64,000 bases of DNA from contig NZ_JADMKU010000003.1 in assembly GCF_018219815.1 (NCBI RefSeq), forward strand, positions 62,001 through 126,000. The letters run 5' to 3'. Source of the DNA: Thalassovita aquimarina (GTDB lineage Bacteria > Pseudomonadota > Alphaproteobacteria > Rhodobacterales > Rhodobacteraceae). Each line of letters starts with the position of its first letter. Position 1 is the stretch's first letter. Shown here piece by piece: positions 43,470 to 52,254 of this stretch. Under the pieces are notes generated by a model. That model saw nothing but the letters and a program-made list of their open reading frames with translations. It was not told the DNA's origin and did not search any database. The translations under genes were made by a program, and so were the position numbers.

Positions 43470-44299
43470 CGCAGCAACACCGCGCGGGTTGCCGCGTCGA
43501 CCTCGGGCCGTTGGCCGAACCAGCGTTCGAATCCCGGCACCGCCTGGTGGATCAGCATGCCCAATCCATCCACCGTGACGCATCCCATATCTTCGGCTTC
43601 GCGCAACAGGCGCGTGCGCAGCGGGTTGTAAACCAGGTCGGTCACCAACGCGCCCTTCTGCAATCCGTCCAGCGGCACCCGCAGCTCCGGTTTCCCCAAC
43701 ATGCCGAGTGACGTCGTGTTCACCACCGTTGCGGCTTCTTCCAGCATGTTGCCGGCCTGTACCCATTCAACAACCTTCACCCTGCTGCCGAAATCCTGTT
43801 GCAGGCTGTCGGCGCGCGCCCGAGTGCGGTTGCTGAGCATGATTTCCGGCACCCCGGCATCGAGAAGCGAAGCCACGACCGCCCGCGCGGCCCCACCGGA
43901 GCCCAGAACCGCGGCCGGTCCGGCGGCAGGATCCCAATCCGGCGCGTTCTGGCGCAGATTTTCGATGAAACCATAGCCATCGGTGTTGTCTGCGTGAATT
44001 TTGCCGTCTTCGCGGAATATCAGCGTGTTCGCCGCGCCAATCAGCGTCGCCCGGTCGGTGACCAGATCGGCGATCTGCATCGCGGCGACCTTGTGCGGCA
44101 CGGTGATGTTTACACCGACAAATCCCATCCGTGGCAGGGTGCGCAAAACGTTTTCCAGATCGTCCGGCGCCACGTCCATCGGAACATAAAAACCCTTGAT
44201 GCCGAGGGTTTTCAGCCAGTGACCATGCAGAAGCGGCGATTTCGAATGGGCGATCGGCGATCCGATCACGCCGGCCAGGGGAATACGCTCGACACTCAT
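43466..44299 (-). CDS. aroE: Shikimate dehydrogenase
   Basis: A 277-residue NADP enzyme reducing 3-dehydroshikimate to shikimate. The substrate motif is GSPIAHSKSPLLHGHWL, then NITVPHKVAAM with the catalytic lysine, the cofactor loop VLGSGGAARAVVASLLDAG and a late VDGLGMLIHQAVPGFERW. Overlaps with maf and coaE are four bases each. Confidence 0.97.
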   Translation of the reverse strand: MSVERIPLAGVIGSPIAHSKSPLLHGHWLKTLGIKGFYVPMDVAPDDLENVLRTLPRMGFVGVNITVPHKVAAMQIADLVTDRATLIGAANTLIFREDGKIHADNTDGYGFIENLRQNAPDWDPAAGPAAVLGSGGAARAVVASLLDAGVPEIMLSNRTRARADSLQQDFGSRVKVVEWVQAGNMLEEAATVVNTTSLGMLGKPELRVPLDGLQKGALVTDLVYNPLRTRLLREAEDMGCVTVDGLGMLIHQAVPGFERWFGQRPEVDAATRAVLLR

Positions 44300-44895
44300 T
44301 GTTGCAGCTCTCCTCGCAGGGTCAGGTAGGACAGGAGTTCCAGAAGCGGCAGCCCCAGAACCGTAAAATAATCGCCGTCGATACGGGAAAACAACCGTAC
44401 GCCTTCCTCTTCCAGCTTGTAACCGCCGACGCAGTGGCCGATTTCCGGCCAGTTGCGATCCAGATAGCCCTCAAGAAAGTCGTCCGAGAAATCGCGCATC
44501 CGCAAACGGACTTGCCCGATATGGCGCCAAAGCGGCTTGCCCGCCTCGCAGATCACCGCCGCCGACAGCAACATGTGCCGCTGACCGCGCATCTGGCGAA
44601 GCTGATCGCGCGCTTCGTCCCGGGTTTCGGGCTTCGACAGCATCAATCCGTTGAAATCGAGCACCTGATCGCAGCCGATCACCAAGGAATCGGGGAATTT
44701 TTCGCTGATCTTCGTCGCTTTCATCTCGGCCAGCGTATCGGCGATGTCGCGCGGCGTGGCATCTTCGGCCAGAAGCGCCGCTTTCACCATCTCTTCATCG
44801 ATTCGCGGCCGTTCGACGGTGAAGGAAACGTTGGCGTTTCGGAGCAGAGATTGCCGAATTTCGGACCCCGAAGCGAGGATCAGATTTTTCTGCAT
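44296..44895 (-). CDS. maf: Maf-family nucleotide pyrophosphatase
   Basis: A 199-residue Maf protein starting MQKNLILASGSEIRQSLLRN. Other landmarks are PRIDEEMVKAAL, VIGCDQVLDFNGLMLSKP, and the late NWPEIGHCVGGYKLEEEGV. Maf proteins hydrolyse non-canonical nucleotides or dTTP/UTP and can affect cell division. The ATG at 44895 shares a base with a perfect DnaA box (TGTGGATAA, 44895-44903), so its ribosome-binding region lies within the proposed origin. Upstream frame extension to 44967 is unlikely. Confidence 0.95.
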   Translation of the reverse strand: MQKNLILASGSEIRQSLLRNANVSFTVERPRIDEEMVKAALLAEDATPRDIADTLAEMKATKISEKFPDSLVIGCDQVLDFNGLMLSKPETRDEARDQLRQMRGQRHMLLSAAVICEAGKPLWRHIGQVRLRMRDFSDDFLEGYLDRNWPEIGHCVGGYKLEEEGVRLFSRIDGDYFTVLGLPLLELLSYLTLRGELQQ

Positions 44896-44903
44896 GTGGA
44901 TAA
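44895..44903 (-). promoter_or_regulatory. DnaA box, perfect consensus
   Basis: TGTGGATAA is the exact complement of TTATCCACA. It lies at the left edge of the maf-rho gap, at the maf start codon. Confidence 0.75.
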
Positions 44904-45211
44904 CCCCGTGGGAAAGCGATGGCATGACTTGGTGAAGAGTACTGGATGGTTCCGGGGATCTTTGCAAGTTGTGCGAAACTCACCATTCGATGCCCCGCTT
45001 GCATGACGCTTATCCTTTCGGGGCAAGGATAACTCCAGGACTGTGATAAACCGCGGTTACGCCCGCTTAGTCCAGTATTTATCCCCGATTCCGGAAACGA
45101 AAATGTCAAGCATAACTATCTGAAATCTAAAAATAATTTTTGAAATATTCAGAAAGTGTACCGGGTTTTTCCATAGATTTCTCTACAGGACGCGAAGAGC
45201 GTGAAAATCTC

Positions 45212-45220
45212 TATGGATAA
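45212..45220 (-). promoter_or_regulatory. DnaA box, one mismatch
   Basis: TATGGATAA is the complement of TTATCCATA, one base from TTATCCACA. It faces the box at 45226 across five bases. Confidence 0.55.
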
Positions 45221-45225
45221 CTCGA

Positions 45226-45234
45226 TAATCCACA
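45226..45234 (+). promoter_or_regulatory. DnaA box, one mismatch
   Basis: TAATCCACA differs from TTATCCACA at the second base. It is paired in inverted orientation with the box at 45212-45220 and precedes an AT-rich tract. Confidence 0.55.
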
Positions 45235-45333
45235 GGATTCCGGCGCCCTAAACCAAAAACAATCCTTTTATCTTTCTTTATTTATTTAAGGATGCCTGCC
45301 GGGGGACCTGCGTGTTCACTCCCGGGATCGGAA

Positions 45334-45362
45334 TTGACTCAGAAAGGACCGCGCCTTATATC
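45334..45362 (+). promoter_or_regulatory. rho promoter
   Basis: TTGACT (45334-45339), 17-base spacer, TATATC (45357-45362): a strong sigma-70 type match. It implies a leader of about 80 bases before rho that contains a small GC hairpin (45373-45386), which could serve the autogenous control common for rho. Confidence 0.65.
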
Positions 45363-45448
45363 GCTTCACAAGCCCCCGTCCGGGGGACCGATTTTCCTTC
45401 AGTAAAGAAGATAGCAATCCCGGTGGGATTGTTCGCAGGATTATTCCC

Positions 45449-46726
45449 ATGACAGAGCAGCAACAGCGCCTGAACCTGGCCGATCTCAAGGCCAAGAGCC
45501 CCAAAGACCTTCTCGCCATGGCCGAAGAGCTGGAAATCGAAAACGCCTCGACCATGCGGAAGGGCGAAATGATGTTCCAGATCCTTCGGGAAATGGCTGA
45601 TGAAGGCTGGGAAGTCGGCGGTGACGGCGTTCTGGAAGTGTTGCAGGACGGATTCGGCTTCCTGCGCTCTCCCGAAGCGAACTATCTGCCGGGTCCCGAT
45701 GACATCTACGTGTCGCCCGACATGATCCGCAAATATTCGCTGCGCACTGGTGACACCGTCGAAGGCGTGATCAAGGCGCCCGAGGAAAACGAGCGTTACT
45801 TCGCCCTGACCTCTGTCACCACGATCAATTTCGAAGAACCGGAAAAAGCGCGTCACAAGATCGCTTTCGACAACTTGACGCCGCTTTATCCCGATGAACG
45901 TCTGAAGATGGAAATCGAGGATCCGACGATCAAGGACCGGTCGGCCCGGATCATTGACCTGGTCGCGCCCATCGGCAAGGGCCAGCGGTCGCTGATCGTG
46001 GCGCCGCCGCGGACCGGTAAGACGGTTCTGCTGCAGAACATCGCGCATTCGATCGAAACCAACCACCCGGAAACCTACCTGATCGTTCTGCTGATCGACG
46101 AACGGCCCGAAGAAGTCACCGACATGCAGCGGTCTGTGAAAGGGGAAGTGATTTCCTCGACCTTCGACGAACCTGCGACCCGTCACGTTGCGGTGTCGGA
46201 AATGGTCATCGAAAAGGCCAAGCGCTTGGTCGAACATAAACGAGATGTTGTTATCCTTCTCGATTCGATCACAAGACTTGGTAGGGCTTTCAATACCGTG
46301 GTGCCGTCCTCGGGTAAGGTTCTGACCGGTGGTGTGGATGCCAACGCGCTGCAGCGGCCGAAGCGGTTCTTCGGTGCGGCCCGGAATATCGAAGAAGGCG
46401 GATCGCTGACCATCATCGCCACCGCGCTGATCGATACCGGTTCGCGCATGGACGAAGTGATCTTCGAAGAATTCAAGGGCACCGGCAACAGCGAGATCGT
46501 TCTCGACCGCAAGGTCGCCGACAAGCGCGTGTTCCCGGCGATGGACATCCTTAAATCGGGTACCCGGAAAGAAGACCTGCTGGTCGATCCGAAGGATCTG
46601 CAGAAAACCTTTGTTCTGCGCCGCATCCTGAACCCGATGGGAACCACCGACGCGATCGAATTCCTGATTTCGAAGTTGAAACAGACCAAGACCAACAGCG
46701 AGTTCTTCGATTCGATGAACGGCTGA
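45449..46726 (+). CDS. rho: Transcription termination factor Rho
   Basis: A 425-residue hexameric RNA helicase. The N-terminal RNA-binding domain includes [20 protein letters not shown] and the cold-shock-like segment [20 protein letters not shown]. Walker A is [15 protein letters not shown], followed by [13 protein letters not shown] (Q/R loops) and [16 protein letters not shown]. Length is normal, with no long insertion. It is the first gene right of the proposed origin and leads into mnmE after 21 bases. Confidence 0.98.
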
Positions 46727-48038: not shown

Positions 48039-48054
48039 TGTTTCACGTGAAACA
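48039..48054. promoter_or_regulatory. parS site 1
   Basis: TGTTTCACGTGAAACA is the exact 16-base ParB-binding palindrome. It lies at the mnmE/mnmG junction, between the GAGGAG ribosome site and the proposed mnmG start GTG at 48047, which falls inside the palindrome. Confidence 0.95.
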
Positions 48055-49915: not shown

Positions 49916-50520
49916 GACAGATCGGCATCGATGTTTCACGTGAAACAATGGCGCGGCTGGAACGCTATGCCGCGCTGCTGGAAAAGTGGAATCCCAAGAT
50001 CAACCTCGTCGCCCGGTCCACGCTGGAAACCCTGTGGGACAGGCATTTTGTCGATTCGGCGCAGGTGTTCCGTCATCTTCCCGAGGGCGCGCGAAGCTGG
50101 GCCGACTTAGGCAGTGGCGGCGGATTCCCCGGGCTGGTGATTGCGATCCTGGCGGCGGAAAAGGCGCCGGATATGCTGGTGACGCTGGTTGAAAGCGATA
50201 CCCGCAAGGCGGCCTTCCTGCGCACGGTGATCCGGGAAACCGGAATTTCGGTGCGGGTGATGGATGAACGGATCGAAAACATCCCGCCCTTGCATTCGGA
50301 TGTGATTTCAGCCCGGGCGCTGGCCGACCTTTCGACGCTTCTGGGCTTTGCTGCCCGACATTTGGGGCAGGGCGGCGTGGCCTTGTTTCCAAAAGGCGTC
50401 AATTGGGAAAAAGAAGTTCGGGAAGCGCAGCAAAAGTGGCGATTCACCTGTAAGCCATTTACAAGTGAAACCGATAGCGGAGCCGTCATTTTGCGAATCG
50501 AGGGAATCGAACATGTCTGA
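49912..50520 (+). CDS. rsmG: 16S rRNA (guanine527-N7)-methyltransferase RsmG
   Basis: A 202-residue SAM-dependent methyltransferase acting on G527 of 16S rRNA. The start is a GTG overlapping the mnmG stop (GTGA). Landmarks: [29 protein letters not shown], the SAM loop [17 protein letters not shown] and [10 protein letters not shown]. Codons 7-12 (DVSRET) are encoded by a parS palindrome. It overlaps parA by eight bases. Confidence 0.97.
49932..49947. promoter_or_regulatory. parS site 2
   Basis: A second exact TGTTTCACGTGAAACA, wholly inside the rsmG coding sequence, 1.9 kb from the first copy and 0.6 kb before parA. ParB is encoded 1.4 kb downstream. Confidence 0.95.
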
Positions 50521-51325
50521 TCCGACCCGCCTTCCGGGGCCGAAAATCATCGCCGTGGCCAACCAGAAGGGCGGGGTGGGCAAAACCACGACGACGATCA
50601 ACCTCGGCGCGGCGCTGGCGGCGGAAGGCATGAAGGTTCTCGTGGTCGATCTGGATCCGCAGGGTAACGCGTCGACCGGGCTGGGCATCGACCCCGAAAA
50701 CCGCGATTACACCACCTACGACCTGCTGATCGACGACAGCGATCTGGACAAGGTGATTCAGCCGACCCGCACCGAGCGGATGGATATCATCCCGGCCACC
50801 GTCGATCTGAGCTCGGCCGATATCGAGCTGATGTCAAACGAAAAGCGGTCCTTCCTGCTGCATGACGCGCTGCGCCAGCACGCGATGGACGCGCATGAAT
50901 ACGATTTCATCCTGATCGATTGTCCGCCCTCGCTGAACCTGCTGACGGTGAACGCGATGGTCGCGTCGCATTCGGTACTGGTTCCGCTGCAATCGGAATT
51001 CTTTGCACTGGAAGGGCTGTCGCAGCTGATGCTGACGATCCGCGAGGTGCGGCAAAGCGCCAATCCGGGGCTGCGGATCGAAGGTATTGTGTTGACCATG
51101 TATGACGCACGCAACAACTTGTCCCAACAGGTTGAAGCGGATGCGCGAGACAACCTCGGCGATCTGGTGTTCAGCACGGTGATTCCGCGCAACGTCCGGG
51201 TCAGCGAAGCGCCGTCTTACGCGGTGCCGGTTCTGGATTACGACCCGACATCGAAGGGCGCGCAGGCCTATCTGCAACTGGCCAAGGAATTGCTGTCGAA
51301 GAATATCCGCATCGCGGCACAATAA
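50513..51325 (+). CDS. parA: Chromosome partitioning ATPase ParA
   Basis: A 270-residue deviant-Walker ATPase. Walker A is IAVANQKGGVGKTTTTINL, Walker A' is VLVVDLDPQGNASTGLG and Walker B is DFILIDCPPSLNLLTVNAM. It segregates ParB-bound origins. ATG 50513 overlaps rsmG by eight bases; the frame upstream to 50348 is not credible. It is followed 14 bases later by parB. Confidence 0.98.
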   Translation: MSDPTRLPGPKIIAVANQKGGVGKTTTTINLGAALAAEGMKVLVVDLDPQGNASTGLGIDPENRDYTTYDLLIDDSDLDKVIQPTRTERMDIIPATVDLSSADIELMSNEKRSFLLHDALRQHAMDAHEYDFILIDCPPSLNLLTVNAMVASHSVLVPLQSEFFALEGLSQLMLTIREVRQSANPGLRIEGIVLTMYDARNNLSQQVEADARDNLGDLVFSTVIPRNVRVSEAPSYAVPVLDYDPTSKGAQAYLQLAKELLSKNIRIAAQ

Positions 51326-51339
51326 AAAAAGGGGCAAAA

Positions 51340-52254
51340 ATGAGCGAGAAACCCAAAACCCGTGGCCTGGGCCGTGGATTGTCGGCGCTGATGGCCGATG
51401 TGAACCCGACACCGCCAAGCATCGAAACCGGTGAAACCACGCGCCGGCCCGACATGATGGTGCCGATCGAAAAGGTACAGCCGAATCCGGATCAGCCGCG
51501 CCGCACCTTCACCAAGGAACAACTGGACGAACTGGCGTCTTCGATCCGGGAAAAGGGCATCATCCAGCCGCTGATCGTGCGGGAAAAGCCGGGCGCAAAG
51601 GGAATTTACGAAATCGTCGCCGGTGAACGTCGCTGGCGGGCGGCACAGATGGCGATGCAGCACACGGTCCCGGTGATCGTGCGCGATTTCGACGATACCG
51701 AGGTTCTGGAAGTCGCGATCATCGAAAACATCCAGCGCGCCGATCTGAACCCGGTCGAAGAAGCCGCCGGTTACAAGCAGTTGATGGAAAAATTCGGCCA
51801 TACCCAGGAAAAGCTGTCCGAGGTTCTGGGCAAAAGCCGCAGCTACATCGCCAACCTGGTGCGGCTGCTGCAATTGCCCGAGGAGGTGCAGGAATTCCTG
51901 CGCGAAGGCAAGCTGAGCGCCGGGCATGCCCGGGCGCTGATCACCTCGGACGATCCGGTGACCTTGGCGAAAAAGGTGATCCATTCCGGGCTGTCGGTGC
52001 GGGAAACCGAACGGCTGGCCAAGAAGCCTGCCAGCGATATCTTTAACGAGACCGCAAAGCCGGAAAAGAAGGCGCCGAAGTCGCTTGAAAAGGATGCCGA
52101 TACCCGCGCGCTGGAGGATGATCTGTCCGCCGCTTTGGGCATGAAGGTGCTGATCGACCACGATCCCGGCAAGGAAAGCGGGATGTTGATGATTTCCTAC
52201 AGGGATTTCGATCAGCTGGACGAATTGTGTCGCAAGCTGTCGGTCATGAGTTAG
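51340..52254 (+). CDS. parB: Chromosome partitioning protein ParB
   Basis: A 304-residue DNA-binding CTPase. The N-terminus RGLGRGLSALM is the ParA-interaction segment. PNPDQPRRTFTKEQLDELA and IVAGERRWRAAQMA form the CTP-binding ParB/Srx domain. The helix-turn-helix lies around TQEKLSEVLGKSRSYIANLV, and the C-terminus is a dimerisation domain. It binds the two parS sites nearby. AGGGG precedes the ATG. Its 3' end overlaps the opposing DUF454 gene by 11 bases. Confidence 0.98.
   Translation: MSEKPKTRGLGRGLSALMADVNPTPPSIETGETTRRPDMMVPIEKVQPNPDQPRRTFTKEQLDELASSIREKGIIQPLIVREKPGAKGIYEIVAGERRWRAAQMAMQHTVPVIVRDFDDTEVLEVAIIENIQRADLNPVEEAAGYKQLMEKFGHTQEKLSEVLGKSRSYIANLVRLLQLPEEVQEFLREGKLSAGHARALITSDDPVTLAKKVIHSGLSVRETERLAKKPASDIFNETAKPEKKAPKSLEKDADTRALEDDLSAALGMKVLIDHDPGKESGMLMISYRDFDQLDELCRKLSVMS

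Follow-up and report, generated by a model that had tools for sequence, protein, structure and literature searches.

The gap between maf and rho in Thalassovita aquimarina is very probably the chromosomal replication origin (oriC) of this member of the Roseobacter group. This reading rests on computed observations: the position of the cumulative GC-skew minimum, the sign change of the skew across the corresponding gap of a relative, an enrichment in DnaA boxes, the neighbouring parABS system and the ancestral origin gene block in which the gap lies. The window, that is, the whole stretch of DNA analysed, is 64,000 nucleotides long (G000:C33:62001-126000) and belongs to a 4.33-Mb genome available as a 67-contig draft; the gap occupies positions 44896-45448 of it. 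The location of oriC is largely expected, as an oriC next to maf is already in print as conserved in Rhodobacteraceae, on the basis of DoriC (available text of PMC4793288). What this analysis adds is the apparent stepwise vanishing of RP001, hemE and hemJ from around the origin, as read from gene order. A genus of marine Roseobacter thereby gains a well-supported origin that can be put to experimental test.

The cumulative GC skew of the 306-kb contig C33, a view of the skew that covers only 7% of the genome, runs down for 107 kb and then up over most of the remainder. Its minimum, at C33:107517 (position 45517 of the window), lies 68 bp inside rho. The strand preference of GGGNAGGG, which we take to be one of the polar motifs that, as in other bacteria, give FtsK its direction, changes across the gap (plus:minus, 33:4 to the right and 7:15 to the left on C33).

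Skew and GGGNAGGG were also sampled in twenty 20-kb stretches in each of three relatives: G001, which belongs to the same genus and is assembled as one 4.6-Mb contig, and G011 and G017, which belong to other genera. In G001, the skew was negative in all 10 left samples and positive in all 10 right ones, so that its sign flips somewhere from -12 to +12 kb; GGGNAGGG was found 48:1 on the right and 14:36 on the left, with the -12 kb sample running in the wrong direction (5:1). Similarly, the skew of G011 was negative in 8 of 10 left samples, positive in 8 of 10 right samples, and changed between -12 and +12 kb. GGGNAGGG was unpolarised near the gap in this genome. Over all samples its totals were 13:29 on the left and 26:16 on the right, and 10 of the 16 came from the +1700 kb sample, which shows the opposite sign and was probably taken from beyond the terminus. 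In G017, the far arms fit (7 of 10 left samples negative, 8 of 10 right samples positive), as does GGGNAGGG (left 6:25, right 27:4); closer in, up to 170 kb from the gap, the skew follows no order, with positive values in the samples at -90, -40 and -12 kb and negative ones in those at +90 and +170 kb, perhaps because of a rearrangement. The original prediction had placed the origin directly between maf and rho and had named GC skew as a check; the minimum in the window and the switch at the same gap in the one-contig genome both support it.

The sites found in and around the gap are listed in Table 1. Together with the skew minimum, they include features of the alphaproteobacterial oriC type, namely a box cluster, an AT-rich tract, the gene neighbourhood (with RP001, hemE and hemJ missing) and parABS. 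One point that speaks against an origin is the small number of boxes, one perfect and two with one mismatch. The window as a whole shows no significant excess of boxes when up to one mismatch is allowed: it has 7, vs 4.3 expected, and 15 of 100 shuffles have as many. What is unusual is their concentration, 3 of the 7 being in 441 bp of the maf-rho gap. Six-base cores (TTATCC at 45010 and 45079, GGATAA at 44898, 45027 and 45215) form the densest cluster on contig C33, with 5 in 450 bp, and the best other site has 2. The perfect box, the facing one-mismatch pair and the TTATCC cores had all been predicted and are all present. The two tracts of about 17% G+C predicted with them exist at the 30-bp scale (13% and 17%); at the 50-bp scale the minima are 18% at 45100 and 26% at 45248. 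The perfect box is conserved in all nine rows of a same-genus alignment.

Table 1. Features of the maf-rho region and of two box clusters elsewhere in the genome (window positions, unless a contig is given)
Feature	Position	Strand	Evidence or remark
maf (Maf-like nucleotide pyrophosphatase)	44296..44895	-	Pfam PF02545, 154 bits; NCBIfam Maf models
Perfect DnaA box TTATCCACA, last base = base of maf ATG	44895..44903	-	motif scan
Opposed weak cores TTATCC (45010) and GGATAA (45027)	45010..45032	.	core scan
Weak core TTATCC	45079..45084	+	core scan
AT-rich tract 1, 18% G+C	45100..45149	.	lowest 50-bp window of the 306-kb contig C33
One-mismatch DnaA box TTATCCATA	45212..45220	-	motif scan
One-mismatch DnaA box TAATCCACA, terminal, beside presumed unwinding element	45226..45234	+	motif scan
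Presumed site of DNA unwinding, with GC-rich spacer, degenerate triplets (CCTA...AATCC) and T-rich tract (AT-rich tract 2)	45235..45292	+	
Conserved TTGACTC, possible -35 of a rho promoter, overlapping GANTC	45334..45340	+	same-genus alignment
rho	45449..46726	+	Pfam; NCBIfam equivalog TIGR00767
Perfect parS, in 5' end of mnmG	48039..48054	+	motif scan
Perfect parS, 5' end of rsmG	49932..49947	+	motif scan
parA	50516..51325	+	Pfam AAA_31, 217 bits
parB	51340..52254	+	Pfam ParB_N, HTH_ParB, ParB_C
5 perfect boxes in 455 bp	C6:56732-57186 (L006:9732-10186; also L209-L213)		argP end and argP-yebC gap
3 perfect boxes in 136 bp	C4:102212-102347 (L005:10212-10347)		just downstream of dnaE-like gene

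GANTC (CcrM) sites, which had also been put forward, are present at 45087, 45236 and 45336 and make a weak point of the prediction: their density (5.4/kb vs 1.5/kb contig-wide) is near the expectation from the gap's own base composition, and GANTC enrichment was therefore dropped as origin evidence. No CtrA site (TTAA-N7-TTAA) was found in 44893-45448. An Rfam scan of 44700-45600 gave two matches, both far under the gathering scores and taken as chance; a promoter scan gave a single weak plus-strand match (45201-45229) that did not rise above shuffles, and BLAST of the gap against plasmids gave no match. The identities proposed for maf, rho, parA and parB were confirmed with Pfam. The two perfect parS sites of the window (0.02 expected) and parAB all lie within 7 kb of the gap.

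Homologous gaps were collected from 113 loci (33 loci plus the top 80 of the 159 matches that were confirmed), of which 11 had no match to maf or rho and one (L204) was dropped for an impossible gap length, leaving 101 gaps (69 + 32). Upstream regions covered 32 of 40 relatives (all except G016, G026, G027, G030, G031, G035, G037 and G040). The relatives are not independent, and at least three gaps are counted twice, as L128, L129 and L130 very probably are contigs of G007, G002 and G008. The 101 gaps contain 77 perfect boxes, vs 0.6 in dinucleotide shuffles and none for the reversed pattern, and 303 boxes with at most one mismatch, vs 11.7 in shuffles and 4 for the reversed pattern. Of the 101 gaps, 57 carry a perfect box and 94 carry two or more boxes that deviate from the consensus by no more than one base; the most frequent one-mismatch variant (38 cases) is TAATCCACA, the terminal box of the window. 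In many gaps the boxes recur at the same offsets from the maf start (about 2, 130-150, 183-187, 291-302 and 315-334). The comparison with related gaps suggested earlier thus bears out the array.

It had also been predicted that the perfect box shares a base with the maf start codon. The ATG of maf is read from the sequence at 44893-44895, on the minus strand, and the shared base is there. In 90 of the gaps maf is the immediate neighbour; 73 of these have a box between -30 and +45 relative to the maf start, and in 47 of the 90 the box ends on the A of the maf ATG. This recurrence indicates that the overlap is old and no quirk of this one genome. A coupling of DnaA binding to maf expression would be a candidate effect, and the overlap offers a simple test case for an initiator acting on an adjoining gene.

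The same overlap, together with the TTGACTC that is conserved ahead of rho in all nine same-genus rows (and is not listed as a promoter by the consensus scan), could mean that the gap is a mere divergent maf/rho promoter with DnaA-responsive boxes, and that initiation takes place elsewhere near parS. We consider this very unlikely: the skew minimum falls within 70 bp of the rho end of the gap, the skew switches at the gap in G001, and the boxes are spread over about 340 bp, at offsets that recur in relatives, with an AT-rich element beside the last one.

A plus-strand box lies at about 255-400 in 69 of the 101 gaps. Past this terminal box, relatives such as L132 and L173 carry CCCTAC..AA.CATCATC followed by a T-rich tract, a shared element situated about 20 nt beyond the box. 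CATCATC is found in 63 of 101 gaps, vs 3.5 in mononucleotide shuffles and 2 on the other strand. The stretch 45235-45292 of the window is in register with this element; its copy is degenerate, CTAAACCAAAAACAATCC then TTTTATCTTTCTTTATTTATTTAA, and lacks CATCATC.

The order of these parts, a terminal box, a short spacer, a triplet-like stretch and an AT-rich tract, is that of the basal unwinding system (BUS), which consists of DnaA boxes plus DnaA-trios, in the available text of PMC8287927. The difference lies in the strict DnaA-trio rule (at least three trios, with a spacer of up to 16 nt from the DnaA box): in the window no run of three lies within 16 nt, and the run of three is found at 27 nt. 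Among the 69 gaps with a plus-strand box, 20 have a run of the strict kind, vs 37.5 in shuffles; under a relaxed rule chosen post hoc (five trios, spacer up to 30), 39 of 69 have one, vs 12.2 in shuffles. The BUS (DnaA-trios) was rejected as the unwinding element of the family because runs of the strict kind are rarer in the gaps than in shuffles. The unwinding element at 45235-45292 is thus presumed from its position and composition, not from BUS membership.

We infer from these sites that DnaA occupies the gap, that unwinding occurs in it and that initiation takes place there. DnaA would bind the perfect box next to maf, the weak sites further in and the two boxes that face each other at 45212-45234, and from the terminal box would presumably spread into the AT-rich element. 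Opening of this element by DnaA would allow the helicase to be loaded, two forks would leave the gap outward, one past maf and one past rho, and the ParABS system beside the gap would segregate the new origins.

The Caulobacter and Rickettsia origins lie between hemE and COG1806 (RP001), an arrangement that is likely ancestral, and the Caulobacter origin was mapped in this RP001/hemE block (available text of PMC1914354). In another survey, oriC was placed in 101 of 109 strains by skew, G+C minimum and parAB (available text of PMC6699656). The Thalassovita locus resembles Caulobacter crescentus Cori in having maf-aroE-coaE on one side and rho on the other, and DnaA sites with an AT-rich tract in an intergenic gap. 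It differs in that RP001, hemE and hemJ are gone, that the TTAA-N7-TTAA CtrA site is missing from the gap, and that the boxes are of the TTATCCACA kind and not G-boxes, the Caulobacter G-box being TGATCCACA (available text of PMC4285127). With the origins predicted by DoriC/Ori-Finder, for example that of Ketogulonicigenium vulgare, it shares a position directly beside maf (available text of PMC4793288).

Gene order in the 101 gaps is maf-hemJ-rho in 70 and maf-rho in 19; RP001 and hemE are both present in 8, RP001 without hemE in 3, and hemE without RP001 in 1. Most of the gaps examined thus have hemJ between the origin and rho, whereas the Thalassovita group, like a small number of other genomes, has rho directly after the origin. 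Outside the family, G033 has maf-RP001-gap-hemE-hemH-hemJ-rho, and in other alphaproteobacteria RP001 and hemE surround the gap in the same gene block. Within the family, G012 retains RP001, hemE and hemJ, G009 and G023 retain RP001 and hemJ, and most genomes retain hemJ only; all three genes are missing at the locus in the Thalassovita set, G010, G017 and G019. The original prediction was right that hemE and the PPDK regulator are missing here: hemE has a hemC-like gene as its neighbour on contig C44, and a search of the T. aquimarina genome with PF03618, the family of PPDK regulators, gave no match. Of 25 genomes searched with PF03618, only 4 have a match, and these are precisely the ones that keep RP001 at the locus, which indicates that the other genomes lost RP001 and did not move it.

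A search with PF03653 gave one match in each of 15 genomes. In the three with an origin-side hemJ it is that copy only (194-205 bits); all 12 maf-rho genomes have one divergent gene, which scores 70-89 bits and lies either at a distance of over 300 kb or on a different contig. The divergent HemJ-family gene of T. aquimarina is at G000:C22:156133-156543. The origin-side hemJ was presumably replaced by the distant HemJ-family gene, which would have taken over from it. A locus of the Caulobacter/Rickettsia type would thus have lost RP001, with hemE and hemJ also gone, so that the origin now sits between maf and rho: a conserved alphaproteobacterial origin locus pared down, with its DnaA-box array kept. 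The version without hemJ, and its history, were not met in the available portions of the literature on origin location.

A richer DnaA-box cluster elsewhere had been named in advance as a finding that would tell against the gap, and in the literal sense one exists. The T. aquimarina genome has 20 perfect boxes in all, and five of them lie in the last third of argP (NCBIfam ArgP/LysG) and the gap to yebC, a gap that is wider in Thalassovita than in other genera. Of 9 same-genus genomes, 6 have an argP relative (cut-off E <= 1e-60), and all six have 5 to 8 perfect boxes there; with up to one mismatch allowed, the count is 5 to 12 per 700 bp. In G008, four perfect boxes are within 700 bp and the fifth is just outside. 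In contrast, the argP relatives of 7 genomes of other genera have no perfect box, and one one-mismatch box in two of them.

That the origin is this cluster or the triple downstream of dnaE is very improbable, the least probable of the readings. Both outnumber the maf-rho gap in perfect boxes, but the argP cluster of G001 lies 1.08 Mb away from that gap, with negative skew on both sides (samples at -800 and -1200 kb) and no switch, it is missing from the seven argP relatives of other genera, and the dnaE-type triple is absent from the G001 list of perfect boxes. The argP-yebC cluster therefore does not overturn the reading of the maf-rho gap as oriC. It is a candidate DnaA titration or reactivation locus. 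In that role it would match, in an alphaproteobacterium, what datA/DARS or titration clusters are elsewhere, and it would exceed the origin in its number of strong boxes. Nothing on it was met in the titles and abstracts of the literature searched, and absence from print is not claimed. If the cluster titrates or reactivates DnaA, control by DnaA dose becomes testable in alphaproteobacteria. The joint proposal, a separate titration or reset locus at argP-yebC and a family-shared unwinding element outside the published DnaA-trio rule, is tentative, and we judge it rather unlikely to hold in both its parts.

Upstream of rho, the window contains a hairpin, CCCCC-GTCC-GGGGG, at 45373-45386. It is not significantly stable (z -0.8 over a 36-nt stretch), and its arms covary within the genus (CCTC/GAGG vs CCCC/GGGG); these changes in the genus alignment point to a possible rho leader element.
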